From a virus, in the IMG/VR virus record IMGVR_UViG_3300006108_000026, positions 1 to 43,417 of that record: a DNA stretch of 43,417 nt, one strand, 5' to 3'. Shown here piece by piece: positions 78 through 25,900 of this stretch. Made by a program: the position numbers and the translations under genes. Under the pieces are notes generated by a model that made no database searches, was not told where the DNA came from, and saw only the letters and a list, made by a program, of their open reading frames with translations. Numbering within the stretch: position 1 is the first letter of the stretch; the number at the start of each line of letters is the position of its first letter.

Positions 78-85
78 CATAAATA
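78..85 (+). promoter_or_regulatory. T4-type late promoter CATAAATA
   Basis: CATAAATA matches the pattern of the T4 late promoter (TATAAATA) except at the first base. Transcription would start about a dozen bases downstream, near 97, leaving a leader of about 40 bases before the gp26-like start at 140. The same octamer pattern recurs upstream of several other genes here, and a gp55-like sigma factor is encoded in the window. Confidence 0.6.
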
Positions 86-139: not shown

Positions 140-934
140 ATGTCTTCAACACAGAACCCTTTGCTTGAGGGTCTAAAGCTGCCAGGGCGGATCTTCCAGC
201 TTCCGTCTCGCGGTATTTTCTACCGCAATGGTGAGCTTGAGGACTCCATTCGCGAGGGTGAAGTTCACGTCCACCCAATGTCCGCGTTGGACGAGATCAA
301 CATGAAGAACCCAGACCAACTCTTCAGCGGCGCTGCGGTCAACACGGTGTTTCGCCGCTGCGTTCCTGGTGTTCTTAAGCCAGCCGAGCTTTTGTCCAAA
401 GACGTAGACGCGATCATGCTGTTCCTCAGAACGGTAACCTACGGTCCTTCCTACGAGTTCATCGCGAAGCACAACTGCGCTGACGGCAAGGGCAGAGACC
501 TAACCTACATAACCGACATTGACACCATGATCAATGCTATGAAGCTCATTGATCCAACCACGGTCGAGAACCTCTATACGCTTACGCTGCCAAACAATCA
601 GGTTGTGAAGCTTCGTCCTAACAAGTACCAGCAGGTTCTAGACTTGATCAGGATGAATGAGAACAAGGCTGAGATCACCGCAGAAGACCAGCAGAACAAC
701 CTCATGATGATGCTGACGGGAGTCATTGAGAGCGTTAATGACATCAACGATCCGGCAATGATCTCTGAATGGATCAAGGTTCTTCCGTCACCGATGGTCA
801 ATCGCATCGCTGAGAAGATTGAAAACATCAATGACTGGGGTTCTACACTTCAAACTACGTGCAAGTGCAAGGACTGTGGTGAAGAGTTCTCGGTTGAGAT
901 TCCAATCAACCCAGTGTCTTTTTTCACCGAGTAA
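140..934 (+). CDS. gp26-like baseplate hub/assembly protein
   Basis: A 264-residue protein resembling the T4 base-plate family typified by gp26 (Pfam T4_baseplate). The N-terminal third contains a typical SRGIFY stretch, and the C-terminus carries a probable zinc knuckle, CKCKDCGEEF, near residue 242. In T4 this family takes part in assembling the central baseplate hub. AGGAG sits 7-8 bases before the ATG, and a late promoter lies 55 bases upstream. The last codons read TCT TTT TTC and form a TTTTTTC slippery heptamer immediately before tandem stops (TAATAA). Some ribosomes may therefore shift -1 and add 76 residues from the next frame, giving a 338-residue product. The family call is by eye. 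Confidence 0.65.
   Translation: MSSTQNPLLEGLKLPGRIFQLPSRGIFYRNGELEDSIREGEVHVHPMSALDEINMKNPDQLFSGAAVNTVFRRCVPGVLKPAELLSKDVDAIMLFLRTVTYGPSYEFIAKHNCADGKGRDLTYITDIDTMINAMKLIDPTTVENLYTLTLPNNQVVKLRPNKYQQVLDLIRMNENKAEITAEDQQNNLMMMLTGVIESVNDINDPAMISEWIKVLPSPMVNRIAEKIENINDWGSTLQTTCKCKDCGEEFSVEIPINPVSFFTE
919..925 (+). promoter_or_regulatory. Probable -1 programmed ribosomal frameshift site TTTTTTC
   Basis: The heptamer lies in the phase T|TTT|TTC relative to the upstream gene, the X_XXY_YYZ form used for -1 slippage. The zero-frame stop TAA is two codons later (932-934). After a -1 shift at 925 the new frame (CAC CGA GTA ATA ...) is open straight into the frame of the 949 gene and ends at 1155. A GC-rich hairpin (GAGCCG 953-958 with CGGCTC 964-969, 5-base loop) lies 27 bases downstream, further than the usual 5-9 bases, so its role as stimulator is doubtful. 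Confidence 0.6.
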
Positions 935-1234: not shown

Positions 1235-2521
1235 TTAAGCTGCGACGCGCTCTGTTCGTTTCTCTACGGATACCCGTATGGACGTTTGTTGAGCTATAAA
1301 GTCGGTGAGCTCGGTCTCACTCATGTCTGTCTGCACGCCATCGAGACCATCGTGGAGCATGAGACCTGTCTGACCACAAGCTTCATGGATCTTGTAGCGA
1401 GCGTCACGCTCCCAATCGAAGTACATGCGGAAGATCTTCTTCTGGTTCTCACGAGTTGGTCGAGCGTTGAGAATGAAGATACAAAGGTCACGCTTGGCCG
1501 CCATGAACTGCTTGCAGATCGCTGACAGACGAGAGCCAACCTTGATCAGTTCGGTAGGCGCAAGGTGAGGACACGCCTCATGGACAATGCGGACAGCTTC
1601 TGATCTTCCAGACCCGTTCGTCATGAGGGCTGGGGTAGCGTTCGATCCATTCGCAAGAGACATGATGAGTGTCTTGACGGTCTTTAGGTTCTCATCAGTA
1701 ACCGGCAGTCGAAGAATATCCCGACAGAGCTCTTCACGGAAGTTCTGCTTGTCTCTGTCAGCTCTTATCAGATCAGGGTACTTGAGCTCAAGTCTACGGA
1801 TGTTGTGCTCGTACTTCTTCTCTAGGTAGTACATGATGAACTGAACGAACGCATTCTCGATGTCTACCACCGTTCCAAATATCTCTCGCCTCAACCAACC
1901 TGGCCAGGTTTCGATTGCGCGGATAGGCCATACGGACTTATCGCGCGCCTGAAGACTGCCGCTTCTTTCAAAGTAGAAGGTGATTGGATTTGGTTGCTGT
2001 AGAAGCCAAGATACAGGAGCGATGAGGTCTTCACGACCCTTAGTCTCCAGCTCCTTGATTAGCCATTGACTATCAACGGGCTGGACGGTGACTTCACTCG
2101 TCGTATACTTCTTTCCCGTAGGAGGAAGGCCAGGGCTGAAGTGAACCTCATCGAAGATGCCAGCCACTGCTGCGCGCATCTTCTTACCGAGCTTGCGAGG
2201 AGAGATGATCGATGGAGCCTTGTTGTCACCACCAAAGTTGTAGCCAATCCTCTTCACGGTGAAGAAGTGGTCAAGGATGACACGAGCATCCTTGACCTGA
2301 CTTGTCAGGCTCGTGATGAGAACCTCTTCCTCGACGAAGCCTGGACTACCTGCCGATTTTCTAGACAGGCGGTACCAAGCCATCGCGATGGAAAGGATCA
2401 GACCCTGGCGCTGCTTGCGCTTCTTCCACCACATCCGCTCAAGCGAGAAGAAGTGTCCAACGAAGAGTGGATTGGAACGGTCTAGCTCTCGATCAATGTT
2501 GACTGGATGGAAGGTCAGCAT
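1235..2521 (-). CDS. Putative divergent family-A-like polymerase palm protein
   Basis: A 428-residue protein not identified by name. Three spaced motifs suggest a DNA polymerase I / T7-type palm. Motif A-like: VVDIENAFVQF with D220. Motif B-like: K283-x7-N291-G292, the spacing of the K-x7-YG helix. Motif C-like: LMLHDGLDGV with H390-D391, followed by a helix and a strand as in VHDE-type motif C. The D-to-K and K-to-D spacings (about 63 and 108) are near those of Klenow. No exonuclease motifs are apparent and the protein is far shorter than true family A enzymes. It is the last gene of the leftward block and overlaps the upstream gene by 29 bases, with GAAGGAGG twelve bases before the ATG. The polymerase assignment is inference from motifs; a polymerase-derived protein with another role is possible. 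Confidence 0.5.
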   Translation of the reverse strand: MLTFHPVNIDRELDRSNPLFVGHFFSLERMWWKKRKQRQGLILSIAMAWYRLSRKSAGSPGFVEEEVLITSLTSQVKDARVILDHFFTVKRIGYNFGGDNKAPSIISPRKLGKKMRAAVAGIFDEVHFSPGLPPTGKKYTTSEVTVQPVDSQWLIKELETKGREDLIAPVSWLLQQPNPITFYFERSGSLQARDKSVWPIRAIETWPGWLRREIFGTVVDIENAFVQFIMYYLEKKYEHNIRRLELKYPDLIRADRDKQNFREELCRDILRLPVTDENLKTVKTLIMSLANGSNATPALMTNGSGRSEAVRIVHEACPHLAPTELIKVGSRLSAICKQFMAAKRDLCIFILNARPTRENQKKIFRMYFDWERDARYKIHEACGQTGLMLHDGLDGVQTDMSETELTDFIAQQTSIRVSVEKRTERVAA

Positions 2522-2993
2522 GCGCTGCGACAGCCTCCTTCAAAGCAACCATCAGTTCGTCGTAGGAGTTGTAGACTGGTCGATTTGCACGTTCGCAAAC
2601 GATCTCGACATTGCCCTTGCGCCAGAAGCCGTCAGCGCAGCACACGAGGACGGTGTGCTGGATGCTGTTGACAAACATGCCAAGCTCTAGAAGGGTGATC
2701 GGGGATTGGGTCTTTGGATCAAAGAAGAAGACGATGATGTCAGCTTCCCAAAGGTGATCCATTTCCCAGTTGACTTGCTCGTTGAACTGTGGGTCATACG
2801 AGCGTTGAACCCAGCTGCTATCCCAGTCATCGCGACGTGGGTTGAAGAGGGCAACGGCTTCGCCTTCGAGATCACGCTTCACTCGATCCTGCCACTTCTC
2901 GGCGGTTCCCATTTCGATAGAACCGCCGAGGAAGATTTTGGTCAGTGAGTTGTAGTGTCCCGTAAGCCGCTTAGGGGCTTGGAGCTCGATCAT
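2493..2993 (-). CDS. Nucleoside 2-deoxyribosyltransferase-like protein
   Basis: A 166-residue protein that looks like the phage and bacterial branch of nucleoside 2-deoxyribosyltransferases. These move the deoxyribose of a nucleoside or nucleotide to another base, or hydrolyse it. Features: FLGGSIE at 21-27 (nucleotide-binding loop), NPRRDDW at 51-57, ADIIVFFFDP at 84-93, and LLELG at 101-105, where E103 is the expected catalytic glutamate. The fold resembles SLOG/TIR-like Rossmann domains. Its start overlaps the stop of the upstream gene (ATGA at 2990-2993), showing translational coupling. A role in nucleotide salvage or modified-base metabolism is likely; the substrate cannot be told. Confidence 0.75.
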   Translation of the reverse strand: MIELQAPKRLTGHYNSLTKIFLGGSIEMGTAEKWQDRVKRDLEGEAVALFNPRRDDWDSSWVQRSYDPQFNEQVNWEMDHLWEADIIVFFFDPKTQSPITLLELGMFVNSIQHTVLVCCADGFWRKGNVEIVCERANRPVYNSYDELMVALKEAVAAHADLPSSQH

Positions 2994-3253
2994 AGAGAGG
3001 CGAAGACGCGCTCAACACCTTCGCGCTTCAGGCGACGGTACATGCCCTTGGGGGACTTGGGATCGAGGATCACCTGGCCGACAGTGACCATCTTTTCGAC
3101 TTGAACGTCCTTGCCGTTCTCGTCCTTTTCGGTGACCATGATCAGCTTGTTGTGGGACTTGGTACGATACGCGGCCCACGGACCCTTGAGGCTTCCCTCG
3201 TTGATCATCATGCGCGTGAGCTGGCGGTAAGCCTTGGCCTTTTTGAGGTTCAT
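2990..3253 (-). CDS. Small basic phage protein of unknown function
   Basis: An 87-residue, lysine- and arginine-rich protein (MNLKKAKAYRQLTRMM at the start) that I do not recognise. It has no membrane segment or signal peptide. AAGGA lies about ten bases upstream of the ATG, and a sigma-70-type promoter (3315-3343) lies about 60 bases upstream. It would therefore lead an operon with the deoxyribosyltransferase-like gene (4-base overlap) and the polymerase-like gene. Confidence 0.7.
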   Translation of the reverse strand: MNLKKAKAYRQLTRMMINEGSLKGPWAAYRTKSHNKLIMVTEKDENGKDVQVEKMVTVGQVILDPKSPKGMYRRLKREGVERVFASL

Positions 3254-3314: not shown

Positions 3315-3343
3315 ATTGTACAACATTTCTAGTCGAAAGTAAA
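3315..3343 (-). promoter_or_regulatory. Sigma-70-like promoter, TTTACT-17-TACAAT
   Basis: On the minus strand TTTACT (3343-3338) is followed after 17 bases by TACAAT (3320-3315). The -35 is embedded in GGTTTACTTTCG, nearly the same sequence as in the promoter before the gp55 gene. It would start transcription of the leftward 2990-1235 operon; its -35 overlaps the end of the GIY-YIG gene. Confidence 0.6.
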
Positions 3344-3829
3344 CCGTCTTTTGCCAGCTTCTGATCTGTTTTTAATCGCTGCTGGCGTATTCATTGAGCT
3401 AATCCTCTTTTGCTTGTTGGCTGGATCTGCCCAAAAGGCCTTCATTCTTTCTGAACGCTGGCGCTTTATCTCTTCGGTGTTGTATGAAGCCTTTGAGCTT
3501 TGCTTCATTCTCTGCCGAGTTTCTTCAGAGTGTTTTCTGCCGGTCATTCCTCTACCACCCACACCACCAAAAGCTAAGTTTAGGCAGTTAGAGTGCGATT
3601 TAACTTCAGCAATAACATGTTCTTCTTTTAGATATGCTTCCTGTGCCGTGTCAAATGTGTATAGCACTTCCACGATCCATGTAGACTTATCAAACTCAGG
3701 ATTTTTCCAAAAACGATTAAGCTTTATGCCTGAGCCCTTGTATCCTTTTTCAATCTTTGATGTCTGAGATTTCCCGACGTAAAATAACCCAGATGGGTGT
3801 CGAGAGATGTAGACGCAGTTTTTAGTCAT
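3329..3829 (-). CDS. GIY-YIG homing endonuclease (Seg-like)
   Basis: A 166-residue protein from ATG 3829. That start forms an ATGA overlap with the stop of the upstream gene; an upstream in-frame TTG at 3838 is possible but less likely. The N-terminus carries the GIY-YIG signature in the variant VYISRHPSG...FYVGKS. The C-terminal half holds NUMOD3-type DNA-binding segments (GRKHSEETRQRMKQSS and a second lysine/arginine-rich repeat). T4 Seg proteins of this kind are free-standing homing endonucleases that cut related phage DNA and spread their own gene. The gene looks visibly more A+T-rich than its neighbours, consistent with recent insertion. It contributes the -35 of the next operon's promoter at its 3' end. 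Confidence 0.85.
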   Translation of the reverse strand: MTKNCVYISRHPSGLFYVGKSQTSKIEKGYKGSGIKLNRFWKNPEFDKSTWIVEVLYTFDTAQEAYLKEEHVIAEVKSHSNCLNLAFGGVGGRGMTGRKHSEETRQRMKQSSKASYNTEEIKRQRSERMKAFWADPANKQKRISSMNTPAAIKNRSEAGKRRFTFD

Positions 3830-4371
3830 TTGACCCAAAAATCTCTAGAATTAAGAACATCGTCAAGATCAAAAACATCTATGGATCGACGCTTATTGAT
3901 GATGGTGAACCGTGGCGTTTTGGTGTGGGAGCCAGTCGGTACAGCCAAAAATATCGGTGTGTTGTTCCATTTGAAAATAAGACAAGGTTCACGCTCCACC
4001 TTTGAAGCGTCATCGCATGCCTCTTCATACCATTTGAAGAAGTTTGCATTTCCGGAAACTAAAGAAGTAAAATTATCCGGGGTCTTGTAGAATTTTGTCT
4101 CGACAGACCAGAGAAAGCTTTCTCCATTCGTTAACACCTGCTTCTCATTGACGCAGACAACATCGCCCACGAAAAGCTTCAGCGCGTCTTCACCGAACAT
4201 TTGTCCGATGGTCTCGAAGTTCTTTCCTCCGACGCGGGCACCAGAGCCCTGAGTGCGAATGAACTTGAGTGGATCGAGAGCGACTGAAAGCTTCTTAGCG
4301 ATCACGTTCTCAAACCCATTTCCCTTGCCCTTGGAGTTAACTCTCTTTTTCTTTGGTGGTTGCGTAGTCAT
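3826..4371 (-). CDS. Holliday-junction-resolvase-like PD-(D/E)XK nuclease
   Basis: A 181-residue protein with the arrangement of archaeal Hjc-type resolvases: a helix with E21 (GNGFENVIAKKL), GSGAR at 42-46, the acidic GDVVCV at 69-74 (D70) and a WSVETKFYK strand with E91-T-K93. These are the expected metal-binding and catalytic residues of the PD-(D/E)XK fold. T4 itself uses the unrelated endonuclease VII, so this may be its replacement for clearing branched DNA before packaging. The N-terminus is strongly basic (PPKKKRVNSKGKG). An ATTAAATA octamer lies 27 bases upstream. Specificity for junctions is inferred; another structure-specific nuclease is possible. Confidence 0.6.
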   Translation of the reverse strand: MTTQPPKKKRVNSKGKGNGFENVIAKKLSVALDPLKFIRTQGSGARVGGKNFETIGQMFGEDALKLFVGDVVCVNEKQVLTNGESFLWSVETKFYKTPDNFTSLVSGNANFFKWYEEACDDASKVEREPCLIFKWNNTPIFLAVPTGSHTKTPRFTIINKRRSIDVFDLDDVLNSRDFWVK

Positions 4372-4415: not shown

Positions 4416-4778
4416 TCAGGCCGCAGTGTCCTTGTTGACGGCGGCAACACTGACCAGAACGAAGTCATGAACAACATCGTGCTCGTCTACCGTCCCGATT
4501 CCAGAAGTTCTAAACGCGACGTCGTCCTTGATATGGTCTAATACGATGCCCATGGGTGTGTTGAGAATCTTTACGGTGGCGTAAAGAGTGTCACCGACTA
4601 TTTCAAGCTTCTCTACCCTATGAGACACGCGATCAAGCGAGATGACGCCATTCTCTGAAAACTCCATCGTCCCCATCATTGGCATCTCTGCAACGTCAAT
4701 GGCCTTCTTGACAACCCAGTCTGGGTAAATCTTGCCTGTCCCTGTGGGCTGGTTAAGTTTAAGAATCGGAACCCTCAT
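4416..4778 (-). CDS. Small S80-peptidase-like (prohead-protease-fold) protein
   Basis: A 120-residue protein whose layout follows the T4 gp21 prohead-protease family (peptidase S80): TGTGKIYP at 12-19, VSHRVEKLEI around 51-60, NTPMGIVLDH in the middle, then RTSGIGTV and DFVLVSVAAVNKD at the end. In the protease the region before SH carries a GE-H motif and the later loop reads SSRG. Here those positions read GTMEF and TSGIG, so the catalytic triad is probably incomplete and the protein may be structural or regulatory. It is far shorter than a full prohead protease. Fold similarity is by eye. Confidence 0.5.
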   Translation of the reverse strand: MRVPILKLNQPTGTGKIYPDWVVKKAIDVAEMPMMGTMEFSENGVISLDRVSHRVEKLEIVGDTLYATVKILNTPMGIVLDHIKDDVAFRTSGIGTVDEHDVVHDFVLVSVAAVNKDTAA

Positions 4779-4841: not shown

Positions 4842-5081
4842 CTAGGCGCTTGCGTTGCGAACGATAAAGACCTTCTTCATGAATCCCTGCTTGACGTCAA
4901 AGGTGTTGGGATCAACATACTTTGCATACTTACGAAGGAAAGGCATTTCTATCTTGATGTAGAAACCGTTGGGCTCATAATAGGCATCACGCCTACTGTC
5001 AAACATCTGCCCAAAGGACACAAACGCGTCTTTTGGAAATGCTTCACCTTCACGCTTGTTTTGCTTTACGAATAGCTTCAT
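4842..5081 (-). CDS. Small unknown protein coupled to gp46
   Basis: A 79-residue protein, not recognised (starts MKLFVKQNKREGEAF). No membrane segment. Its ATG overlaps the gp46 stop (TCATG region 5078-5081, ATGA on the minus strand), so it is translated with the recombination genes and may assist them. Nothing more can be said from the sequence. Confidence 0.65.
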   Translation of the reverse strand: MKLFVKQNKREGEAFPKDAFVSFGQMFDSRRDAYYEPNGFYIKIEMPFLRKYAKYVDPNTFDVKQGFMKKVFIVRNASA

Positions 5082-6835
5082 GCTGCTTCCTCTACGTCTT
5101 CGTCACCTACGATGCGACTGAAGCCGTTTTGCTTTCTAACGGTCACCGTTCTGTCAAAGCGACCGATCGCTTCTGGACGGTGAGAGATGATCCAAAGTCC
5201 CAGACCTTCGTCACGAGACTTCTGCTTGAGCAAGCGGAAGACGCTCTCAACCCCAGAGCCATCAAGCGACGCGTCGATCTCGTCAATGAAGAGACAGTTG
5301 ACGCGAGCGTGAAGGTGGTGAAGAACATCGCGGAAGGCGAGGGACAGAGAAAGGTTGACCCGCTTCTTCTCACCGCTTGAAAGGTTTCCAAAGTCAAGCT
5401 CTCGACCATACTCAGAAACCGTGCAGCTCATGTCATCGTCAAACTTTACGATGTGAGGCAGCCCAAGGTCCTTCGTGTATTTGATAAGACACTTGTTGAG
5501 GAATGGAATGGTCTTGTTGATGATGCGGCGGCGGATGAAAGAGTTCTTGTCCGTCAGGAGCTTGAGCAGGAACTGTTGGTGCTCAAGGTCTCTGCGCAGC
5601 TCATCAACCTTCTCGTAAGAGACCTGCTTGATGGCAGACTTCTTGAGGTGCTCGTAAGCTTCAACGTGGGGATTTTCCGCACTGATGAGATCGTTGATTT
5701 TCTGCTGTGCGGTTGCTGCAGAAGTTTCAGCTCTAATGGCGTCCGCGAGAGTGTCAAACTTCATGTTTGCCTTGGCATCAACTACAGCCTGCTGAAGCTC
5801 TGCTTGCTCTGCAGTAAGAGATGCAACCTTGTCTTCGACCTCCTTAAGAGCGTCGCGCTTCTTTGAAAGAGCTTGTTCCTTCTCAGCGATCTTATCGACA
5901 GCGCCATCGTATTTCTGCAAGCAGTACGGGCACTTTTCATCAGTGAGATGCTCTAGTTCCCCAGCCAGACGGTTGATGTCATTTGACAGAGTGGAGCGAT
6001 CTCGACGAGCGAGAGTGAGCTTGCTGTTGATCGGACCAAGAAGCTTCTCAGCTTCGGTCACCATCCGGTGCAGCTCTTTTTCAGCGTCCATGTCCACGGT
6101 CTTGAGAAGCTCAAGGTTCGCGGTCAGTTGTTCTACTTGGCGAACGCGATCATCTTCCCAGCGGGTTACTCGTGCCTTGGCATCCACAAGCTGCTTCTCA
6201 TACAGAGCGAGCTGAGCTTCCTGCTCCTTGTTGATCGCCTCCTGAACCGCGATCGCACCATCGGTTGACTTGATGATCTCCTTTAGCTTCACTGCCTTCT
6301 CGGTGAGGAGCGTGATGTTAAAGAGCTCCTCGATCTGCTGGCGCTGATGCCCCTGCGGCATCATCAGGAATGGAGTGGAGTTACCAGAGAAGATGATGAT
6401 CTTGGTGAAAAGGTCGTAAGACATGCCGAGGATTTCCTCAACGAGCTTGTCGTTTTCACCGACGCTGTCAAGGGTGATGTCCTCACCGTTCATGAGAACG
6501 TTGATGTTGTAGGTCTCGCCGCGGCAGCGGTAGATTTCAAAAAGGTCATCACCCTTCTCGAAGACCAGCTTGATCTCCATGAGGGTGTTCTTGGTGTGAT
6601 TGGTAGAGTTGATCAGTCGCTGAAGCGAGATGTTGTCGAATGGCTTGTTGTAGAGGGCGTAGCAGATCGCGTTGATGATCGTGGTCTTGCCGGCACCGTT
6701 GTTCGACCCAGCGTCAACGTTCTCACCCACGATCAGGGTGGACATCTCATCACTTAGGTCGATCGTCGTCATGATGTTGCCGAACGACAGGAAGTTTCTC
6801 AGTTGCAGTTCTTTAAACTTCAGGGGTGTGCTCAT
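5078..6835 (-). CDS. 46: Recombination endonuclease subunit gp46 (Rad50/SbcC-like)
   Basis: A 585-residue SMC-type ATPase, close to the length of T4 gp46. It has a Walker A GSNNGAGKTT at 43-52, a long coiled coil broken near the middle by the zinc-hook CPYC (302-305), an ABC signature LSSGEKKR at 485-492, a Walker B CLFIDEID at 514-521 and the switch histidine in SHR at 551-553. With the gp47 nuclease it forms the Mre11-Rad50-like complex that resects DNA ends, driving recombination-dependent replication and host DNA degradation in T4. It overlaps the next upstream gene by 4 bases and its downstream gene likewise. Very secure. Confidence 0.95.
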   Translation of the reverse strand: MSTPLKFKELQLRNFLSFGNIMTTIDLSDEMSTLIVGENVDAGSNNGAGKTTIINAICYALYNKPFDNISLQRLINSTNHTKNTLMEIKLVFEKGDDLFEIYRCRGETYNINVLMNGEDITLDSVGENDKLVEEILGMSYDLFTKIIIFSGNSTPFLMMPQGHQRQQIEELFNITLLTEKAVKLKEIIKSTDGAIAVQEAINKEQEAQLALYEKQLVDAKARVTRWEDDRVRQVEQLTANLELLKTVDMDAEKELHRMVTEAEKLLGPINSKLTLARRDRSTLSNDINRLAGELEHLTDEKCPYCLQKYDGAVDKIAEKEQALSKKRDALKEVEDKVASLTAEQAELQQAVVDAKANMKFDTLADAIRAETSAATAQQKINDLISAENPHVEAYEHLKKSAIKQVSYEKVDELRRDLEHQQFLLKLLTDKNSFIRRRIINKTIPFLNKCLIKYTKDLGLPHIVKFDDDMSCTVSEYGRELDFGNLSSGEKKRVNLSLSLAFRDVLHHLHARVNCLFIDEIDASLDGSGVESVFRLLKQKSRDEGLGLWIISHRPEAIGRFDRTVTVRKQNGFSRIVGDEDVEEAA

Positions 6836-7308
6836 TCGAAATACACCAGATGGTTGTTGTCATTGTCGCGGTTGCTGTAGAGCATAGGGGCGAACCAGTC
6901 TTCAATCACTGTCAGATCATCTTTGTCGATGTCCGTCCAGATCAAGAGGTCTGAGATTGCGCGACCTTTCCCCGCCATGAGACTGTTGATGAGGTTGATG
7001 CGAGCGCCCGTGTCAAACGTAATCTGCCGCATTGCAGAGTTTGAAACGCAGTTGGCAAGGTCGGCTGGAAGGGTGAGGATCGCGCTGTTGAGCTCTGTCC
7101 AGAAGCGAATGACCGCGTCTCGACGAGTCAGATAAACAACGGCAGCGGTATTTGGATGCGTAAGCCCGCGCCAGATGCAGTAGGCGATTGCTCGATCCCA
7201 ATCCGTTGTTCTGGACCGTTCCTCAAGCGCATCAAAATCCGGTCCTAGAACTTCCTTCATCTTGCTGATGAAGCTTTCTGGGTCTGTGACTTGTGATAGG
7301 TCGATCAT
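6832..7308 (-). CDS. Terminase-ATPase-like protein lacking Walker A, between gp46 and gp47
   Basis: A 158-residue protein joined by 4-base overlaps to gp47 upstream and gp46 downstream. From residue 33 on it follows the order of motifs in the ATPase domain of large terminases such as T4 gp17: a helix after a missing P-loop, TAAVVYLTRRDAVIRFW (strand plus helix), LTLPADL at 79-84, TFDTGARINLI at 97-107, a GKGRAISD turn at 113-120 and a Walker-B-like DLLIWTDID at 120-128, where true terminases have ..IDE. There is no G-x4-GKT anywhere, so ATP hydrolysis is unlikely. It may be a relic or repurposed ATPase fold working with the gp46/gp47 nuclease. The relationship is inferred from motif order only. 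Confidence 0.5.
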   Translation of the reverse strand: MIDLSQVTDPESFISKMKEVLGPDFDALEERSRTTDWDRAIAYCIWRGLTHPNTAAVVYLTRRDAVIRFWTELNSAILTLPADLANCVSNSAMRQITFDTGARINLINSLMAGKGRAISDLLIWTDIDKDDLTVIEDWFAPMLYSNRDNDNNHLVYFE

Positions 7309-8339
7309 AGGCAGTTGTAAATCTCGATGAGGCGATCTGGATCGATCGTAGTTGTTCCGGTTATTCCCGTATGAAGCATCTTGACCACTGCATCGTTGAG
7401 AGAGCTAAGGTCGAAGTCATCGATGACGTCTTCGCCAGCGATTGCTTCTTTCTTTTCAGCGATGTTTTCTTCAAGAGAGAACTCACGAAGCCCGAGTTCC
7501 TTAGTAAAGTCTTCACGAAGGGCTTGTGCTTCTGAGTAGCTGATGTCGACGTCAATCAGACACCGTACGCGGCACTTAGGAGGGAAGTTGAGAGTCGAAT
7601 CGCCTAGAACGTCCGATAGCTTGACCTTCCTGTACTTTGGGCAGTCCTCCCAGTCGATGAACGTTACGTCATCGTCGGTAGTATTTAATATCGCCATGCC
7701 CCTGGCGTCGTCCCACGCATCCCCATAGTCCATTGGGAAGGTGTTGCCGATGTAGATGATGTTGTCGTTGGCTTGACGCTTGTGGAAGTGACCCGAGAAA
7801 ATGTAGGTCGGCCCGGTGAACTGCGTGTGGTCCGGTCCATGTTCCATCCGGCGGTCAGAGCCGGTGATGATGAAGTTTCTGAACTCGAAGTGCCCCATCC
7901 AGTACGGGATGTTGTTGTACTGCGCGAGCTTAGGGTACTCGTCCTTGAACAGGAACGGTGCGATAAGCATGTCCTCGACAACGAGGGGCTCGTTCACCAG
8001 CGTAATATTGGAGAACTCCTCGAACACCTTGGTTGAGAAGACCTTGCGGTTCTCACGGTGATAGAGGTCGTGGTTGCCGATGATGATGTAGATGGGGAGG
8101 CCGAGATCGTTGAGCATGCGAAGCGCATCGTGCGCGAACGTCATGGTCATCACGTTCACCGAGTTTCTGTTCTCGAACCAATCGCCGAGGAACATGACAT
8201 GCGTGATGTCACCTTGGGCACGAACGTTCTTGCAGAACCAAGCTACGAAGTCGAGACAGTCTTGGTTGTGCTGGACAGAGTTGTTCTTCTTGCCAAAGTG
8301 GATGTCGGTGAACATCGCCACTTTCTTAGGAGCAGCCAT
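7305..8339 (-). CDS. 47: Recombination endonuclease subunit gp47 (Mre11/SbcD-like)
   Basis: A 344-residue metallophosphoesterase, matching T4 gp47 in size. The five phosphoesterase motifs are present: TDIHFG (11-16), GDWFENR (52-58), GNHD (88-91), GHFEFR (149-154) and GHFHKR (183-188), supplying the aspartates and histidines that bind the two metals. It is the nuclease partner of gp46 in end resection. The gene lies 6 bases after the gp55 gene and overlaps the terminase-like gene by 4 bases, so sigma factor and recombination genes form one leftward unit. Confidence 0.95.
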   Translation of the reverse strand: MAAPKKVAMFTDIHFGKKNNSVQHNQDCLDFVAWFCKNVRAQGDITHVMFLGDWFENRNSVNVMTMTFAHDALRMLNDLGLPIYIIIGNHDLYHRENRKVFSTKVFEEFSNITLVNEPLVVEDMLIAPFLFKDEYPKLAQYNNIPYWMGHFEFRNFIITGSDRRMEHGPDHTQFTGPTYIFSGHFHKRQANDNIIYIGNTFPMDYGDAWDDARGMAILNTTDDDVTFIDWEDCPKYRKVKLSDVLGDSTLNFPPKCRVRCLIDVDISYSEAQALREDFTKELGLREFSLEENIAEKKEAIAGEDVIDDFDLSSLNDAVVKMLHTGITGTTTIDPDRLIEIYNCL

Positions 8340-8345
8340 AGGCGT

Positions 8346-9125
8346 TTACTCCGAAGCTGGAGGCGTAGGGTCGACGACCTTCTTTTTCTGGAATGGCCTC
8401 CTGTTGCCAACCGGCTTCTTCCTGATGACGTTCTTCTTCGGCTTCTTCCCTGCATGAGGGTCAACCGCAATGATGACGTCTGGGCGGTCCTTGTAGGTGA
8501 TGATGCCCGTCACCGGATCGTAGTTGATTCGGTCCTTGGAGATGCGGGTCACCGGACCAGGAGCACGTTGGTCGGCACGGATGATCGAGAGAGCCGAACG
8601 TTCAAACTGCTGAACGCCTGGCTTATCCGGCTGCGGGAGGAATGGAGCATCGGGATCGGCAAGCTGGAGAGAAGGCTCATAGGAACCATTGTCGCTCTCG
8701 AGCACGTTGTCGGAGCTGTCATCCTTTTCCTTCTCAAGGAAGTTGAAGGACGGGTTCGAGCCAGCTTCCATAAGCAGCGTGTCACGGATGTTTCGCTGCT
8801 TCTTCTCTTCCGACATGTATTGAAGGAAGGAGTTGTGAATCGCGGTGGTGTAGAAAGCGAAAGGATTTTTACCGCGATCGAGGTCAAACTTTAGAGCAGT
8901 GTTGCAGAGGTTAGCAACTGCGGCGGAGACCATGTCCTCTCTGAAAGAATAACCCACGAAGTTGTGCTTTCGTGAGTACCGTTCAGCGATCATTTGGATC
9001 ATGCGGATCAGTTCTGTCGTAACGTAACCAAGCTCCTTGGCACGGATTACTTCAGGAAGAAGCACTGCGTTCGTTACGTAGTGGCCCTTCGTACTGGTAG
9101 ACTTTTCTCTCTTAACTTGTTTCAA
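8346..9125 (-). CDS. 55: Late-transcription sigma factor, gp55-like, with C-terminal extension
   Basis: Read from TTG 9125 the protein has 259 residues (MKQVKREKSTSTKGHYVTN...). Residues 17-115 match the T4 gp55 pattern: YVTNAVLLPEVI, IAERYSRKHNFVGYSFREDM, KFDLDRGKNPFAFYTTAI. gp55 confers recognition of late promoters on host RNA polymerase. TTG is preferred over the in-frame ATG at 9284 because GGGAG lies eight bases before it, a good sigma-70 promoter (9168-9196) sits inside the longer reading, and the longer form would overlap the opposite gene. The motif PSFNFLEKE (125-133) resembles the C-terminal clamp-binding tail of T4 gp55 (SLDFL). Here about 125 more residues follow, ending in a lysine/arginine-rich tail. 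Confidence 0.85.
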   Translation of the reverse strand: MKQVKREKSTSTKGHYVTNAVLLPEVIRAKELGYVTTELIRMIQMIAERYSRKHNFVGYSFREDMVSAAVANLCNTALKFDLDRGKNPFAFYTTAIHNSFLQYMSEEKKQRNIRDTLLMEAGSNPSFNFLEKEKDDSSDNVLESDNGSYEPSLQLADPDAPFLPQPDKPGVQQFERSALSIIRADQRAPGPVTRISKDRINYDPVTGIITYKDRPDVIIAVDPHAGKKPKKNVIRKKPVGNRRPFQKKKVVDPTPPASE

Positions 9126-9167
9126 AATAAGGTCTCCCGTGACGTGGAACGTGTAGGAGATATTGTG

Positions 9168-9196
9168 ATTATACCCTAAGTAGCAACGAAAGTAAA
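9168..9196 (-). promoter_or_regulatory. Sigma-70-like promoter, TTTACT-17-TATAAT, for gp55
   Basis: On the minus strand TTTACT (9196-9191) is followed after 17 bases by a perfect TATAAT (9173-9168), about 43 bases before the TTG start at 9125. The -35 lies in GTTTACTTTCG, shared with the promoter at 3315-3343. It would let host polymerase make the late sigma factor and the downstream recombination genes before late transcription. Confidence 0.75.
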
Positions 9197-9242
9197 CAAC
9201 TATTTTCGTTCGGGACTCACTTTTTCCCAGAGTGACCTGGTC

Positions 9243-9250
9243 AATAAATA
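9243..9250 (+). promoter_or_regulatory. T4-type late promoter AATAAATA
   Basis: AATAAATA ends 33 bases before the ATG at 9283 and would start transcription near 9261. It fixes the start of the nucleotidyltransferase at 9283 rather than at the upstream in-frame GTG 9232, and may drive the gp48-gp53 block as well. Confidence 0.6.
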
Positions 9251-9282
9251 TCCAGTTCGCATCACGCCTATCAGGATCAGCC

Positions 9283-9996
9283 ATGAACGATATCCAGTCT
9301 CAGCTAGACGCTCTTCCCCTCTTCGAGGACCTCTCTCCTATGGCGAGCAAGAAGGTTGCTGTGGTTATCGGCCGCTTCAACCCTCCTACGAAGGGTCACT
9401 ATGCAGTCATCGACGCTGTAAAGAAGTTCATCCGCAAGAATAAGTCCTTGGGTCTTGAGGCTGCTCCAGCCGTTGTGATCATCGGAGGTAGCAAGTCCGA
9501 TGCCGATAAGAAGAAGAACCCTCTCTCCGCTGAGGAAAGAGAGACCTTCATGAAGGCGTCAGGCAAGACCAATGGCTGCACCTTCTTCATCGCGCCTAAC
9601 GCCTTCGCTGCCTTCGCGATGCTCCGCGAGAAGGGCTACGAGCCAATCGCAATCGCGGCTGGCACTGACCGCATCGAGGACTACAAGAAGATTCTCGACA
9701 AGTATTTCCTAACCCCAGACGACAAGCCAATTACCCACCACCCAATCCACCTTGAGCGCGATGAAGACGCGATCGAGACAGACAAGGAAAGCAAGGGCAA
9801 GGCTATGGACTCTACCCTTAAGTCGATGAAGAGCGGTTCTGATGTTGACACCGACATCGTTTCTGGATCGCTTGCTCGCCGCGCGGTTGAACTCGGTTAC
9901 GAACCAGAGTTCGCAAAGATCGTGGGTCTTGAAGATAAGCCAGCCCTAGCAAAGAAGATGTTCAACAAGATTGCTTCCGCGATTGGTGGGGAATAA
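9283..9996 (+). CDS. Nucleotidyltransferase (cytidylyltransferase / NMN adenylyltransferase-like)
   Basis: A 237-residue protein of the HxGH nucleotidyltransferase superfamily. It has GRFNPPTKGH at 30-39 (T/HxGH motif), a GTDR loop at 127-130 and SGSLARR at 194-200, which corresponds to the ISGTxxR motif that binds the triphosphate. Such enzymes couple a nucleotide to NMN, phosphopantetheine or a phospho-sugar; the substrate here is unknown. The 20 residues before the fold (MNDIQSQLDALPLFEDL) look like a short docking tail. AGGA lies seven bases before the ATG. The gene ends directly at the ATG of the tube-cap gene and is read from a late promoter, unusual for a small-molecule enzyme. Confidence 0.8.
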   Translation: MNDIQSQLDALPLFEDLSPMASKKVAVVIGRFNPPTKGHYAVIDAVKKFIRKNKSLGLEAAPAVVIIGGSKSDADKKKNPLSAEERETFMKASGKTNGCTFFIAPNAFAAFAMLREKGYEPIAIAAGTDRIEDYKKILDKYFLTPDDKPITHHPIHLERDEDAIETDKESKGKAMDSTLKSMKSGSDVDTDIVSGSLARRAVELGYEPEFAKIVGLEDKPALAKKMFNKIASAIGGE

Positions 9997-19906: not shown

Positions 19907-22900
19907 ATGGCGCAAAACCTAGACTTCAATAAACTTATTCCTGGTTACATGCAGAATGAGACTCTCACGAGTCTTGTCAACAACCTGTTTAACCGCTTCG
20001 TCTCTCAAGAAAGCAGCATTTCTGTTTCGGGTACCGTCGGTGTTCCTGTTTCTGGCACCGCTGAGATCACTCAGCCAACGCTTGAGCGTCAGGAAAATGC
20101 TCTAATCCCAGGTCTGTACTTCAAGTCTGGCACTCAAGAATACCTTTACACTTTCGAAGACATGCTCAACAAGATGAGCACGCTTGACATCGATGTCACC
20201 AATCTTCGCACGTGGATCGCTGAGCAGACCTTCAACTACTCTCCACCGATTAACTACGACAAGTTCATCAACTACGCGAACTACTACTGGATCGGTTCTG
20301 TTCTTCCAAATAACTCTGGCCCAGCTTGGAACACTTCCAACAGCCCAGAGTACTACGTGATCCAGCAGCCACTGTCAACTTCTTTGACGAAGATGCCAGT
20401 GCGTCTAGCCACTACCCGCGACGTCTCTCGCTGGGTAAACGATCGTCCGACAGAAGTCTTCACGCTGACATTCACGTCAAGCACGACGTTCACGATTGAC
20501 AGCAGCCTTTCTCCAGGCCAAGTCTACACGGACATCTCAACCATTCCATCTGCACAGAACGCGGTTACCAAGATTGTTGTTCGTGCGCATGACTCTGCCA
20601 CATATCCAGGGCTGAGCGCGCCGTCTCTGGCTGACTACGATCTGTGCGAGTTCTACATCGTCAATGGTTCAACTCCGTTTGCCGCGGGCGACCAGATCGA
20701 GATCACGCTTACGTACTTCACGAGCGACATCTTCATCTCTGTTATTTCGCCAAACCTCATTGGCAAGGGCACTGTCAACGGTGTCTCTACCCTTTCCCCG
20801 TTCATGTACATCGATGGGATCCAAGTCAAGATCGGTGACCGCATCCTCGTAAAGGACCAAGTCGACACCACGCTGAACGGCATCTACGTCGTCACTGAGG
20901 GTGGAGTGTGGTCTAGAAGCTACGACGCGACCTACGACGATCAGTTCAATGTCGGCATGAAGGTCTATGTTGAAGAGGGTGCGACTCAGACGGGATACAC
21001 CTACGAGCTGACCTTCAAGGGAAACCTGAATCTGCCTGGTCCTGGGGTTCCTATCGACTCTAACCTGACCTTTACTTTGTACTCAACGACTGATCCATCT
21101 ACGATCAACGACTGGCAGAAGTACAACTACTGGGTTCACAAGGACGACCTTTGGCAGTTCTCTGCTCTGGGCGTCACACTGAATAATACGACCCAAGCAC
21201 AGCGCCCAATCATTGAGTACCTCGGCACCATCCAGCTCAATGGATATGTCGACTCTGTTACTGGTGAACCATGCGACGGCTCTAGCTCAACTGCAAGCCC
21301 GCTGTACCAAGCGAAGACTCGCTTTAACCAGATCCCGCAGTTTGATCTTTATCGCTATGACGGCACCCATGCTGGCATGACTTCGGGCATCTGGTTCTAT
21401 TCAGAGAGCCCACAGTATGTCACAGACAACATTCTTCTCCGTCGAGTTGAAACCACCGTCAACGGTGACTACGTTTTCTCAAGCGGTATCAAGGATGAAG
21501 CCGGTCGTCTTCTGTACTGGAAGAACGAAGGTGTGCTCAACTCTATCTGGAGACCGGGTGTCCAGACGGCATACCCTACTCTGCCTATCTTTACTGGTTC
21601 TTCTAACCACCGTCAGGGCGACCTTCACTTCCCAAGCGTAAATCCAGTCGCAGATGTTCAGGACTGGACGGTTACTCTGATCAATCCAACAACTGCTAAC
21701 ATCACTGGTACAAGAAGTGGATTTGTTGGCACCGCAACTGTAGATGTCAGAACGTCATTCGATGACTTTGATATCCGCATCGCGTCGAGAAGCATTCCGT
21801 ATGTCGCAGGCGATACGTTCACCTTCCACATGTGGGCACCAGCATCTCCTCGCTATGTCAAGGAGCTTGCGGATGGCAGCATCGTAAACTATCCGGGTGG
21901 TTATGCCGCAGACCAAGCTGCAGCCACTCAGACCGGTACGTGGCTGACTCCTCTGCGCATGTTCGAAAACCTCAACCGTGAATCTAGGACGACGATCTCG
22001 TTCCCAGACTTCATGAACCATGCGCGCTCGGTCATCAAGAACCAGGCGCAGTTCACTGGTGCTTCTTTCGGCAACAACAATGTCCGCACCCTTAACTTTT
22101 TCACGGGTGCAGGCGGTAAGATCCGCGAGTTCGAAAGCAACTTCCCACTGCTCGCGTCAATGCTCATTGAGCAAGACCTGTCACCAATCACCATCATTGA
22201 CTTTGCCGAACAGCAGTATAACATCGCGCTCGCAAGCATTGACCAGTTCTTGATCAATGAACTTGCTGGTTATCTTGCGGCTGGAAACACAGTTCAAACA
22301 ACCACCATAAATCCAAACGCGCAAGACATCATTAAGCTTGGAAATTACTTCCAGGCACTAAGAGCACAGAACACCAACCTTGCTGCCGTGTTTGGTGACA
22401 CGATCTCTGCTGTAAAGAACTGGCCAGCTACTCTTCCAATGATTGGCTTGGTAAGTCGTGTAACTCCGTCCATCACGATTGATCCCGAGCTTAACATTCC
22501 AGTTATCGTGCACCACGATGGTCATATCTCCCCACTGGCAACTGAAGATGCCACGTTCAACCGCAACCTCACGCAGACAGTTGTAACCCGTTCTGACGGC
22601 ACGAAGTCAGCCGGTGTCTTTTATGAAACTCTTCCAGCTAACTTCCGCCCTTACGCTCAACAGCTGTGGATGGTCCCATCTACGAGCGCGGTAAACATCT
22701 TCAGCGTCACCTACGACACCGAAGAAGCTCCAGCGACTGGTCTTGCAGGGCAGTATTGGTATCAGCGTTCAACGAATACTCTTCGCGCGTGGGATGCTGG
22801 CATTCTTTCTTGGATCCCAGCACCGGTTTCAGTCGCATCCCGTTGGATCCCATTCGCCGCCGAAAACGTTCGTAACAGCCTGGTGCTTTCAATCGAGCAG

Positions 22901-25900
22901 CAGCTCTATGACAGCGTCCACCCAGCCCAGCAGCTGAACATTGATCTGCTTCATAGCGATGCCGTGACAAACGCGGCATACAATGAACTAGAGCTTGCTC
23001 GCTTTGCAGCGAAGTACAACTACGACACCTACGCTCCTGACTACTCTGCCTCAAACCCATTCACCTGGAACTACAGCCAGGCGACTATGCCCGATGTTCC
23101 AGGCACGCCGGGGATTGCTCGTTGGTTTGATCTTTACAAGTCTTACTTCACGACTTATGGTGCTCCTGACCTAGACCGTCCAGACCTTTACCCATGGCGT
23201 CTCGGGACTGCGGCTTTCGGCGCCTCGTATGATAAGCCTGCTGGTTGGGATGCAGCGTATGCTGGAACAACCCGCCCTTGGTCAGATCAAATGTGGGCGG
23301 ACATCCAAGCGTTCCACCCAACCATCAAGCTGTGCGTGGATATTCACACCGACACTCTGCTTCCACCATACGTTGCTGCCTCTGATCCAAATGCTATCCG
23401 CGCATTGACGAACACCATTCCGCCAGGCATCAGCGCCGGCTACTCATACGGCCAAAATGGTCCAGTTGAACTCGTGTGGGAAAAGTCCCTTGAGTATCTG
23501 TATGGTCTTGCACGCACCTACTTCCGTCTGTACCCACTCGCCTTCCTCGACAAGAGCTGGGGCGAGACGTACATTCAGTCAGATGGTAACCTTCGCGTAG
23601 AGCGTAACCTTCAGGCATCCCTCCCAGCATCAAAGTTCCTGATGCACGGTGAGCGCCTTAACCTTGTCAACTCATACACCCCTGCCGAGGCCAAGGATCG
23701 CTTCCTAAATCTTGGTGGCGTCACGTGGACCCCTACGTTCTCTGGAACGGTCTCATTCACGGTAACCCACTGTGCCAACACTGGCGACGTGGGCATGCTT
23801 GGTCCTATGGGTCCATCATCTACAGTCTTCGGCGTGTATGTCAACGGAGAGCTGGTTACCCGTGTGTTCGAAGGGGTAGCGTTCTCGTTCTACTCACCGC
23901 AAGGCGTAAACTTCGCTAATGTAACGATTGAAGACCACGGCATCCCATTCGAGATCGGTGACACGCTCACCATGACGTTTGAAGCCGACACGATCACTAC
24001 CGAGCTACCAACCACCGGTCTTGACTTCATGTACGGTCTTCTTGGTTGTGAAGGTTGCGTGGCAGATGCAACTCCAGACCCTTCACTCGTCATCACTGAC
24101 ACTCCACACCTACCAACCTATTCATTCACCGCGGGCCAGACTAAGGTCCTCAAGGGTACGGGCCAGTGGTTCACCAACCTTCTGCGCTACAGCTACATTG
24201 ACACGGATTATTCGACAGCGTCTCTCGCATACCGTGGTTGGGCTGTAAACCTTGTGCACCGTCTCGGCGCGCTGGTCCGTCCAGACACGCTAACAATCAC
24301 CACGAACTCCGGTACTATCCCAACCACCGGCTACAGCGTGATGCTTAAGCGTTCAATGAACACGCAATCGCTGTGGATCTCCGGCATCCGCGTTCAGCTT
24401 GTTCAAATGGGTGCCAAGGTTCTAGAGCCAAGCGGGCTCTACATTCCAGCAAGTGACGGTTCTGACTGGATCTTCCGCGTTGAAGTCTACAACCCATCCC
24501 ACCCAGTTGCCGAGTACCGCGTGCTCGACACTGCAGGAGACTATACTGACTTCACCGCTCTCGGTGGGACCCACTCCAAGATTTCTTGGAAGCGTTACTC
24601 GAACTACACCTCGACGACTACGTCAACGATGCCACTGCAGATCACTGGCATTCAGAACGTTCTGAACTTCCTTTACGGCTATGTTGACTATCTCGAAGGT
24701 CAAGGCTTCAAGGCCAATAGCTCTGACGTTCCACTGACCGATGCTGCAACCGGCCGCAACGTTGACTGGCAGCTGGAGATTGAAAAGTTCATCGACACTG
24801 TCTATGCTGGAATGCAGGCCGGTGCTGGTGTAATCGTCAACCCATTCATGAGCAAGCTGTACCTTCAGACTCCAACTGGATTGATGGGCCGCTACACCGA
24901 CAGCAAGTTCCTCGACGCTTACTCATCTCAAGCAGCATACGACATCACCGGCTCTGCTATTAGCCCTCGCAACCTTAGCGTCATCCGCACTGATGCTCAG
25001 ACCGTAACCTACTCCAAGACGCCAATCTTCTCAGCGCACGTCTTCGTTGATGAGTTTGAGCACGCGATCATCATGAACAACCGTTTCTCAGATGATCCAA
25101 CGTCTTCGGTAATCTTCGATGAGTTCCTCGGAAGCTACACGCAGACCGCGTACTTGACCTACACTCGCCAGGCAGACATCAACAATAAGCCAACGTTCGA
25201 CGGATTCTTCCTGAACGGCAACGATGTCACGAGAAACATCGCGTCGACTATCGATTCTCTTCAGCACACCTACGATGCTGGTTCTACCTTCAACGAACCG
25301 AAGATGGCACAGCACGCGCTGTCGCTTATCGGCTTCAAGTCTAAGGACTACTTCAACACTCTCAACATCAGTCCTTCGGTTCAGCTGGACTTCTGGAGAG
25401 GTATGATCAGTGCCAAGGGTACGAACCTCGCCATCGATGCCTTCACCAACTACAAGGCGTTCTCTAACTCTTCAGTCGATGAGTTCTGGGCCTACAAGCT
25501 TGCGTCATACGGTGATGCAGGTGAGCGCACGTTCCCTGAGATTAAGATCCAGCCAAACGACTGCTCGCGTCAGTTTACGTCTCTGCAGTTCTACACGAAG
25601 ACCGATCCTACCTACACTGCGCTCCCACTGTTTATCCAAGTAGAAGCCAATGACGACACCCGTTGGTTCTCTATCGATGACCTTGGAACGGTTCTGCGCT
25701 TCGACGCGGACGCCGTGTCTGAAATGGTCAATGTCACAGAAGCTGGTTATGTTCAGCTCTCGAACATCTATCACAACGGTGATACGATGGGACCATCGAT
25801 CAGCCCATCTACTGGGGCCCGCATGGTCAATGCGAACACGATCTACGTAACTACCCCAGGGACCTACACGATCTCTGGCTACACGTGGAACAACCAAGCC

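Follow-up and report, generated by a model that had tools for sequence, protein, structure and literature searches.

The polymerase gene and its neighbourhood

The window, by which we mean the whole stretch of DNA analysed, is a 43,417-nt viral fragment from IMG/VR, and it carries on its minus strand an ORF for a putative extra polymerase of family A, 428 aa long. The ORF begins with ATG and has a GGAGG element upstream. It belongs to a co-directional block with the order gp55, gp47, an ORF, gp46, a small ORF, a gp21-like fragment, a PDDEXK nuclease and a GIY-YIG endonuclease, followed by a small protein, a deoxyribosyltransferase-like protein, the polymerase and finally the convergent gp26. 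The principal genes are given below together with their occurrence across 30 related loci, where some of the gaps are due to loci that end early.

140..934 (+), gp26 baseplate hub, convergent, closes the block (PF12322, E 3.1e-08; 29 of 30 loci)
1235..2521 (-), gene of a putative 428-aa extra A-family (TV-Pol/divPolA-like) polymerase (ORF, 58 IMG/VR loci, predicted structure, fold matches, dN/dS)
2493..2993 (-), nucleoside 2-deoxyribosyltransferase-like gene, facultative neighbour (PF15891, E 1.1e-32; 9 of 30 loci)
2990..3253 (-), small 87-aa neighbour, a conserved upstream gene (about 83-87 aa; 14 of 30 loci)
3826..4371 (-), PDDEXK nuclease with a RusA-like Holliday-junction-resolvase PHROG (PF24608, E 1.4e-17; phrog_244, E 2.6e-14; 25 of 30 loci)
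5078..6835 (-), gp46/SbcC-type recombination nuclease subunit (phrog_77, E 2.2e-97; 25 of 30 loci)
7305..8339 (-), gp47/SbcD-type recombination nuclease subunit (phrog_100, E 1.6e-58; 22 of 30 loci)
8346..9284 (-), gp55-type late sigma factor, opens the co-directional block (phrog_234, E 3.3e-26; 20 of 30 loci)

The linkage of the polymerase gene to gp46, gp47 and gp55 is conserved. The jumbo phage RaK2 has the same backbone, with gp55-gp47-gp46 followed by ORF085 and gp49 endonuclease VII and then by gp26, the tape measure and the portal, which puts the polymerase into a gp46-gp26 slot that RaK2 fills with gp49 endonuclease VII and another ORF. Conservation of the neighbourhood can reflect gene order alone. 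The first-pass annotation had considered the polymerase to be co-transcribed with the deoxyribosyltransferase-like gene; this neighbour is real, sharing 29 nt with the start of the polymerase gene, but the linkage is not a conserved one.

At 22 of 30 loci (e.g. at 8214-8870 of locus L001) the PDDEXK nuclease is separated from the polymerase by a conserved 214-aa protein without a PHROG match, which is absent from the window. The PDDEXK gene of the window is adjoined by the GIY-YIG/NUMOD3 homing-endonuclease-like gene (3329-3838, minus strand, phrog_314, E 1.3e-23), while the fragment of 120 aa between gp46 and the PDDEXK nuclease resembles the gp21 prohead protease (4416-4778, minus strand, phrog_207, E 1.6e-10). 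Stray gp21-like pieces also directly follow the polymerase gene at two other loci, L005 and L017, and the fragment looks like a wandering partial paralogue. Divergent from gp55 is a cytidylyltransferase/NMN-adenylyltransferase-like gene (9232-9993, plus strand, phrog_3041, E 1.7e-17). Farther along the window, an ORF of 2853 aa (19907-28468) has matches to families of virion structural proteins and tail fibres; ORFs of 1326 aa (28455-32435, plus strand) and 843 aa (40859-43390, minus strand) gave no significant PHROG match.

Conserved motifs and predicted fold

All three motifs of a family A palm that had been read from the sequence at first pass are present in the proposed order within the 428-residue protein: motif A (VVDIENAFVQF, aspartate D220), motif B (VKTLIMSLANGS, lysine K283) and motif C (LHDGLDGV, aspartate D391). 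The spacing, then called Klenow-like, holds as an order of magnitude only, with A-B and B-C distances of 63 and 108 against 47 and 132 in T7 DNA polymerase; the corresponding values are 94 and 181 in T7 RNA polymerase and 63 and 204 in N4 RNAP2. The residues and predicted domains discussed below are located as follows, with their conservation among 47 relatives.

1250..2131 (-), residues 131-424, predicted short thumb, palm and fingers of A-family fold (structural matches)
1349..1354 (-), H390-D391, motif C, turn of the 387-389/392-394 hairpin (47/47)
1649..1651 (-), N291 (K+8; Y766 in Pol I, Y639 in T7 RNAP; 47/47)
1661..1663 (-), M287 (K+4; F762 in Pol I, M635 in T7 RNAP; 47/47)
1673..1675 (-), K283, motif B lysine, helix 276-290 (47/47)
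1736..1738 (-), R262, arginine in fingers helix 258-269 (47/47)
1847..1849 (-), F225, at D+5 in the place of the steric gate, E710 of Pol I (F or Y in 47/47)
1862..1864 (-), D220, putative metal-binding aspartate of motif A, end of strand 218-221 (47/47)
1943..1945 (-), R193, arginine of GxLxxRDxS that follows strand 180-186, candidate for the template-strand arginine of the Pol I TGR motif (47/47)
2105..2521 (-), residues 1-139, N-terminal domain, probably winged-helix-like and DNA-binding (model pLDDT 87.5, weak fold matches)

Iterative searches of IMG/VR enlarged the number of loci with relatives of the polymerase from 2 to 8, 17, 34 and finally 58, with identities to the window protein from 69% down to 30%, and 47 distinct full-length proteins drawn from the 58 loci made up the conservation set. 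Among these proteins 34 of the 428 positions are invariant, including R193, D220, R262, K283, M287, N291, G292, H390 and D391, and Q227 is kept in 46. For a set of 29 sequences, the chance of finding the three named residues all among 40 invariant ones was 8e-4. Close pairs of relatives gave dN/dS values of 0.09-0.11. Invariance across the 47 proteins and low dN/dS together indicate that the motifs are real and constrained, and judged from these comparisons the gene is under strong purifying selection.

The family was found only in metagenomes. The window protein has no match in Pfam, PHROG or NCBIfam and no convincing one among PDB sequences, and tblastn against 50,697 phage records gave no hit at E 0.01 (for two divergent relatives not even at E 1). 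Likewise, no relative was found among the 84,980 bacterial and archaeal species genomes scanned. Weak matches of the window protein to yeast Rtt102 (E 0.02) and ribosomal eS17, as well as tblastn matches to Streptomyces plasmids (E 0.09) that fall on the start of a CRISPR-linked helicase gene, were judged to be chance. Profile comparison by hhalign with T7 RNAP, T7 DNAP, N4 RNAP2, divPolA1 (sequence MW353176) and divPolA2 gave no significant score, but the positive controls, T7 DNAP against immuto PolA and T7 DNAP against T7 RNAP, both failed as well, so that non-significance is no argument against relatedness here.

An AlphaFold2 model built with 15 family sequences reached a pLDDT of 85.8 and a pTM of 0.77. 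D220 ends strand 218-221 in this model, K283 lies in helix 276-290 and D391 is found at the 387-389/392-394 hairpin; two short helices (151-175) precede the palm hairpin, and the predicted topology is that of an A-family palm with fingers. Foldseek against the PDB placed KlenTaq first, weakly (E 0.019, probability 0.96). When the Foldseek candidates were aligned with VIA-align, Pol theta (Z 12.5), KlenTaq (Z 11.8) and T7 DNA polymerase (Z 10.8) matched residues 131-424, and the A-family matches as a whole extended over about 250 residues with Z 10.3-12.5 and rmsd 4.2-5.0. A-family DNA polymerases formed the sole coherent high-Z family, and the 50 VIA-align matches listed were all A-family polymerases. 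The palm and fingers arrangement, whose absence had been set beforehand as refuting, was thus found in the predicted structure, with A-family polymerases as its top fold matches.

Two proteins of uncultured Caudovirales headed the matches in a library of viral protein models (E 4e-9 and 5e-6). Below them came the replication proteins of the Zamilon and Qinghai Lake virophages (E 1e-4 and 8e-4), which carry TV-Pol domains. In Sputnik, a virophage replication protein of this kind has been shown to have such a domain (PMC2579912). R193 adjoins strands 180-186/194-198 in the model, and hhalign put its segment on the TGR segment of T7 DNAP, at a non-significant score. Neither the Pfam search nor the model revealed a nuclease domain in the 428-aa protein.

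The N-terminal 139 residues were also modelled alone (pLDDT 87.5). Their fold matches are weak, none exceeding Z 5 and none falling below E 0.2 in the viral library, and many are winged-helix proteins (ORC, Orc1, BusR, HlyU, SqrR, CtsR), with PUB domains also among them; the domain is probably winged-helix-like, which we take as a lead only. The first-pass view that the protein contains no other recognised domain has to be relaxed for this probable domain, weak as its matches are. Taken together, sequence and model provide good support for the identity as a polymerase, its role being a matter of inference, and we are highly confident that the modelled protein has an A-family polymerase fold with an intact catalytic site.

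Active-site signature and similar enzymes

The position five residues after D220 is F or Y in the window family, compared with E710 in Pol I and glycine in the T7 and N4 RNA polymerases. An aromatic residue at the sugar-gate position also occurs in reverse transcriptases and family B enzymes. Q227 at D+7 and M287 at K+4 agree with the T7 and N4 RNA polymerases, M287 standing where Pol I has F762, and N291 at K+8 takes the place of the tyrosine of Pol I and T7 RNAP. In the fingers, K-4 is mostly I or L (L279 in the window protein) and R in 8 of the 47 relatives, so the TV-Pol RxxxK arginine is not conserved among them; D257 is common, and R262 is invariant elsewhere in the fingers. Because E710 and F762 are both replaced while Q227 and M287 match RNA polymerases, the choice of sugar is uncertain; the signature is a mixed one, whose aromatic gate makes a preference for deoxynucleotides somewhat more likely. 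A degenerate, catalytically dead polymerase retained for DNA binding might account for the loss of the motif B tyrosine and the RxxxK arginine, but none of the 47 proteins, which are under strong purifying selection, departs from HD, the lysine of motif B or the two metal aspartates, and we consider this reading very improbable. That the enzyme is an active templated polymerase appears likely.

The RNA-polymerase-like residues raise the alternative of a single-subunit RNA polymerase of T7/N4 type that transcribes a class of phage genes or makes RNA primers. T7 RNAP and N4 RNAP2, but not T7 DNAP, have in common with the window family a Q at D+7, an M at K+4 with (Y/N)GS after it, and an HD that precedes a small residue (G/S); motif C of one relative reads VHDSIEG. 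N4 RNAP2 is similarly short (404 aa), and divPolA2 has also been suggested to be an RNA polymerase (PMC11348598). The gate, however, is aromatic in 47/47 where the T7 and N4 enzymes have glycine, motif B carries N instead of Y, the fingers-palm region is much shorter than in T7 RNAP, and the fold matches are led by DNA polymerases.

Transcription signals also speak against this alternative. The phages encode the gp55 late sigma factor, and in the pooled loci T4-type NATAAATA elements occur upstream of genes far more often than expected (17 observed against 0.7 expected for TATAAATA), among them gp26 and the tape-measure gene, so that late transcription looks host-RNAP based. The T4 late promoter TATAAATA does not occur in the window alone, NATAAATA variants emerging on pooling of the loci. 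No repeated promoter of phage-RNAP type stood out in the window, and PF00940 (T7-type RNAP) had no match over the cut-off in 12 records. Upstream of gp55 in several relatives, TTTACA followed by TATAAT about 17 nt later was noticed by eye, which suggests that the recombination block starts from a host sigma-70 promoter. The region from which gp26 and the tape-measure gene diverge contains T4-type late-promoter-like CATAAATA/GATAAATA elements, in the window at about 78-85 (+) and also in relatives. On balance we regard a T7/N4-type RNA polymerase as unlikely.

At first pass a second, small enzyme of this kind had been called unusual; it is not unprecedented, since TV-Pol (PMC2579912) and divPolA1/divPolA2 (PMC11348598) were already described. 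TV-Pol, reported in 2008 by Iyer, Abhiman and Aravind, comprises compact A-family enzymes of mobile elements and occurs in Sputnik, bacterial mobile elements and phage Ma-LMM01 (PMC2579912). Like these viral enzymes of 400-600 aa, the 428-aa window polymerase appears to be a compact A-family enzyme without exonuclease, with a two-aspartate palm, fingers with the motif B lysine and a candidate for the beta-hairpin arginine (R193), and its model structurally matches the Zamilon and Qinghai Lake virophage proteins. It differs in its N-terminal domain, in the absence of a conserved RxxxK and in having no D5-like helicase fused to it; neither such a helicase nor a mobile-element recombinase was found among the neighbours identified (gp55, gp47, gp46, PDDEXK, gp26). 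The likeness to TV-Pol is seen at the level of structure.

The divPolA enzymes, reported in 2024, are additional A-family polymerases of phages that have a different replicase, and divPolA2 is that of Rheinheimera barbaviruses and Vibrio phages (PMC11348598); by tblastn we found divPolA2 relatives in ICP1. Members of divPolA2 resemble the window polymerase in length (about 430 aa), in being extra beside a PolB replicase, in lacking an exonuclease and in having an N-terminal globular domain in place of the classical thumb, and several appear to carry N at the position of the motif B tyrosine. They differ in keeping R at K-4, in E at the gate (AUR84708) and in their variable neighbourhoods as opposed to the conserved gp46 block. 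Between the window family and divPolA2 hhalign gave E 0.13-0.25, a depth at which control pairs of known relatives failed too. The divPolA1 polymerase of the Flavobacterium phage immuto group (PMC11348598), 441 aa in immuto_3-5A, is likewise a small A-family enzyme beside a regular DNA polymerase, but its motif B (KQINFHAIYG) retains YG as in Pol I, its exonuclease domain is inactivated, and it lies in a replication block with SSB, RecA and DnaB.

CCPol, assigned to the TV-Pol group by Iyer et al., has been biochemically tested (PMC7581432). The CCPol-MP primase of SCCmec is also built on a small A-family polymerase with a shortened thumb and shows that such an enzyme is able to prime DNA de novo (PMC7581432, PMC10061031). 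CCPol shares both ribonucleotide discriminators, E710 and F762, with Pol I (PMC7581432), where the window polymerase has F225 and M287; furthermore it needs the OB-fold partner MP and works with an operon helicase, neither of which is among the window neighbours identified. In kind, the window family resembles TV-Pol and divPolA1/divPolA2, with a different signature, and by prediction it would work in the way they do. We do not call it a member of TV-Pol or divPolA2, as RxxxK is not conserved, no D5-like helicase was identified nearby and the profile scores are non-significant, like those of the positive controls.

A predicted second polymerase beside the T4-type replisome

The window is a 43-kb fragment without the replisome genes, and evidence on the replisome comes from relatives, namely 12 records of 104-368 kb. 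Of these, 11 encode PolB, 11 a primase of gp61 type and 11 a helicase of gp41 type, and Pfam DNA_pol_A was absent from all 20 records searched, in agreement with the first-pass statement that the replicase of T4-like phages belongs to family B. Every one of the 12 long records has exactly one copy of the polymerase gene; in the four whose gene positions were compared, some 50 kb separate it from the PolB-gp61-gp41 cluster. Several long records also contain a full-length match to phrog_97, which, judged from controls, behaves as a RecA/RadA family. The presence of PolB, gp61 and gp41 together with the single copy shows the polymerase to be additional to a complete T4-type replisome, and the lineage that carries it is one of jumbo T4-like phages that keep it in single copy beside recombination genes. 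A single-copy gene present in every related record searched could be taken for the main replicase or sole primase of these phages; the whole-record searches led us to reject both ideas, since a full T4-type replisome is encoded, and we give them hardly any credence.

A specialised repair polymerase, acting in translesion synthesis or Pol theta-like end joining and extending primers without priming, would fit the adjoining gp46/gp47 and resolvase-like nuclease genes and the lack of an exonuclease domain. Pol theta also heads the structural list, but its rank lies within the range of a tie with KlenTaq (Z 12.5 and 11.8), no helicase partner is present, and the winged-helix-like N-terminal domain suggests binding to a site or to ssDNA instead. 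We consider such a repair enzyme possible, if somewhat unlikely.

The reading that we favour, at a probability of roughly 0.5, is an extra compact A-family polymerase with a primase or gap-filling function in recombination-linked replication or repair. Its palm and fingers are predicted to be intact, with D220 and D391 for metal binding, K283 of motif B and R193 as candidate template arginine, and nucleotides would be added on a DNA template by the usual two-metal mechanism. Without a proofreading domain and with a minimal thumb the enzyme would be distributive and of low fidelity. It may be guided to recombination intermediates by the probable winged-helix-like domain at its N-terminus and by its gp46/gp47/resolvase neighbours, and there it would prime or fill gaps in recombination-dependent replication or break repair, PolB, gp61 and gp41 meanwhile copying the bulk of the genome. 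We infer the recombination role from gene context and the N-terminal domain, and as a separate claim the primase or gap-filling role is tentative, at a little under even odds. De novo primer synthesis has a precedent in the A-family CCPol with its partner MP (PMC7581432), but priming by the window polymerase would be redundant as a gp61-type primase is already encoded.

A bolder version sees a recombination-dedicated primase-polymerase, a third functional type of phage A-family enzyme that starts at intermediates processed by gp46/gp47 and has a mosaic site, with RNA-polymerase-like motifs A, B and C around an RT/family-B-like aromatic gate and the motif B asparagine. This version is quite unlikely; if true, it would in part free these jumbo T4-like phages from the need for priming by gp61.

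The replisome of the textbooks is that of T4, whose jumbo relatives are assumed to depend on PolB, gp61 and gp41. Here an uncultivated lineage maintains, as it appears under strong selection, a second polymerase whose gene shares a conserved block with those of the gp46/gp47 recombination nuclease, and this polymerase is not recognised by the protein-family libraries searched. If active, it would offer a compact enzyme for studying how the Pol I-type fold changes its substrate between DNA and RNA and its activity between extending and priming, and it would be a new player in recombination-dependent replication.
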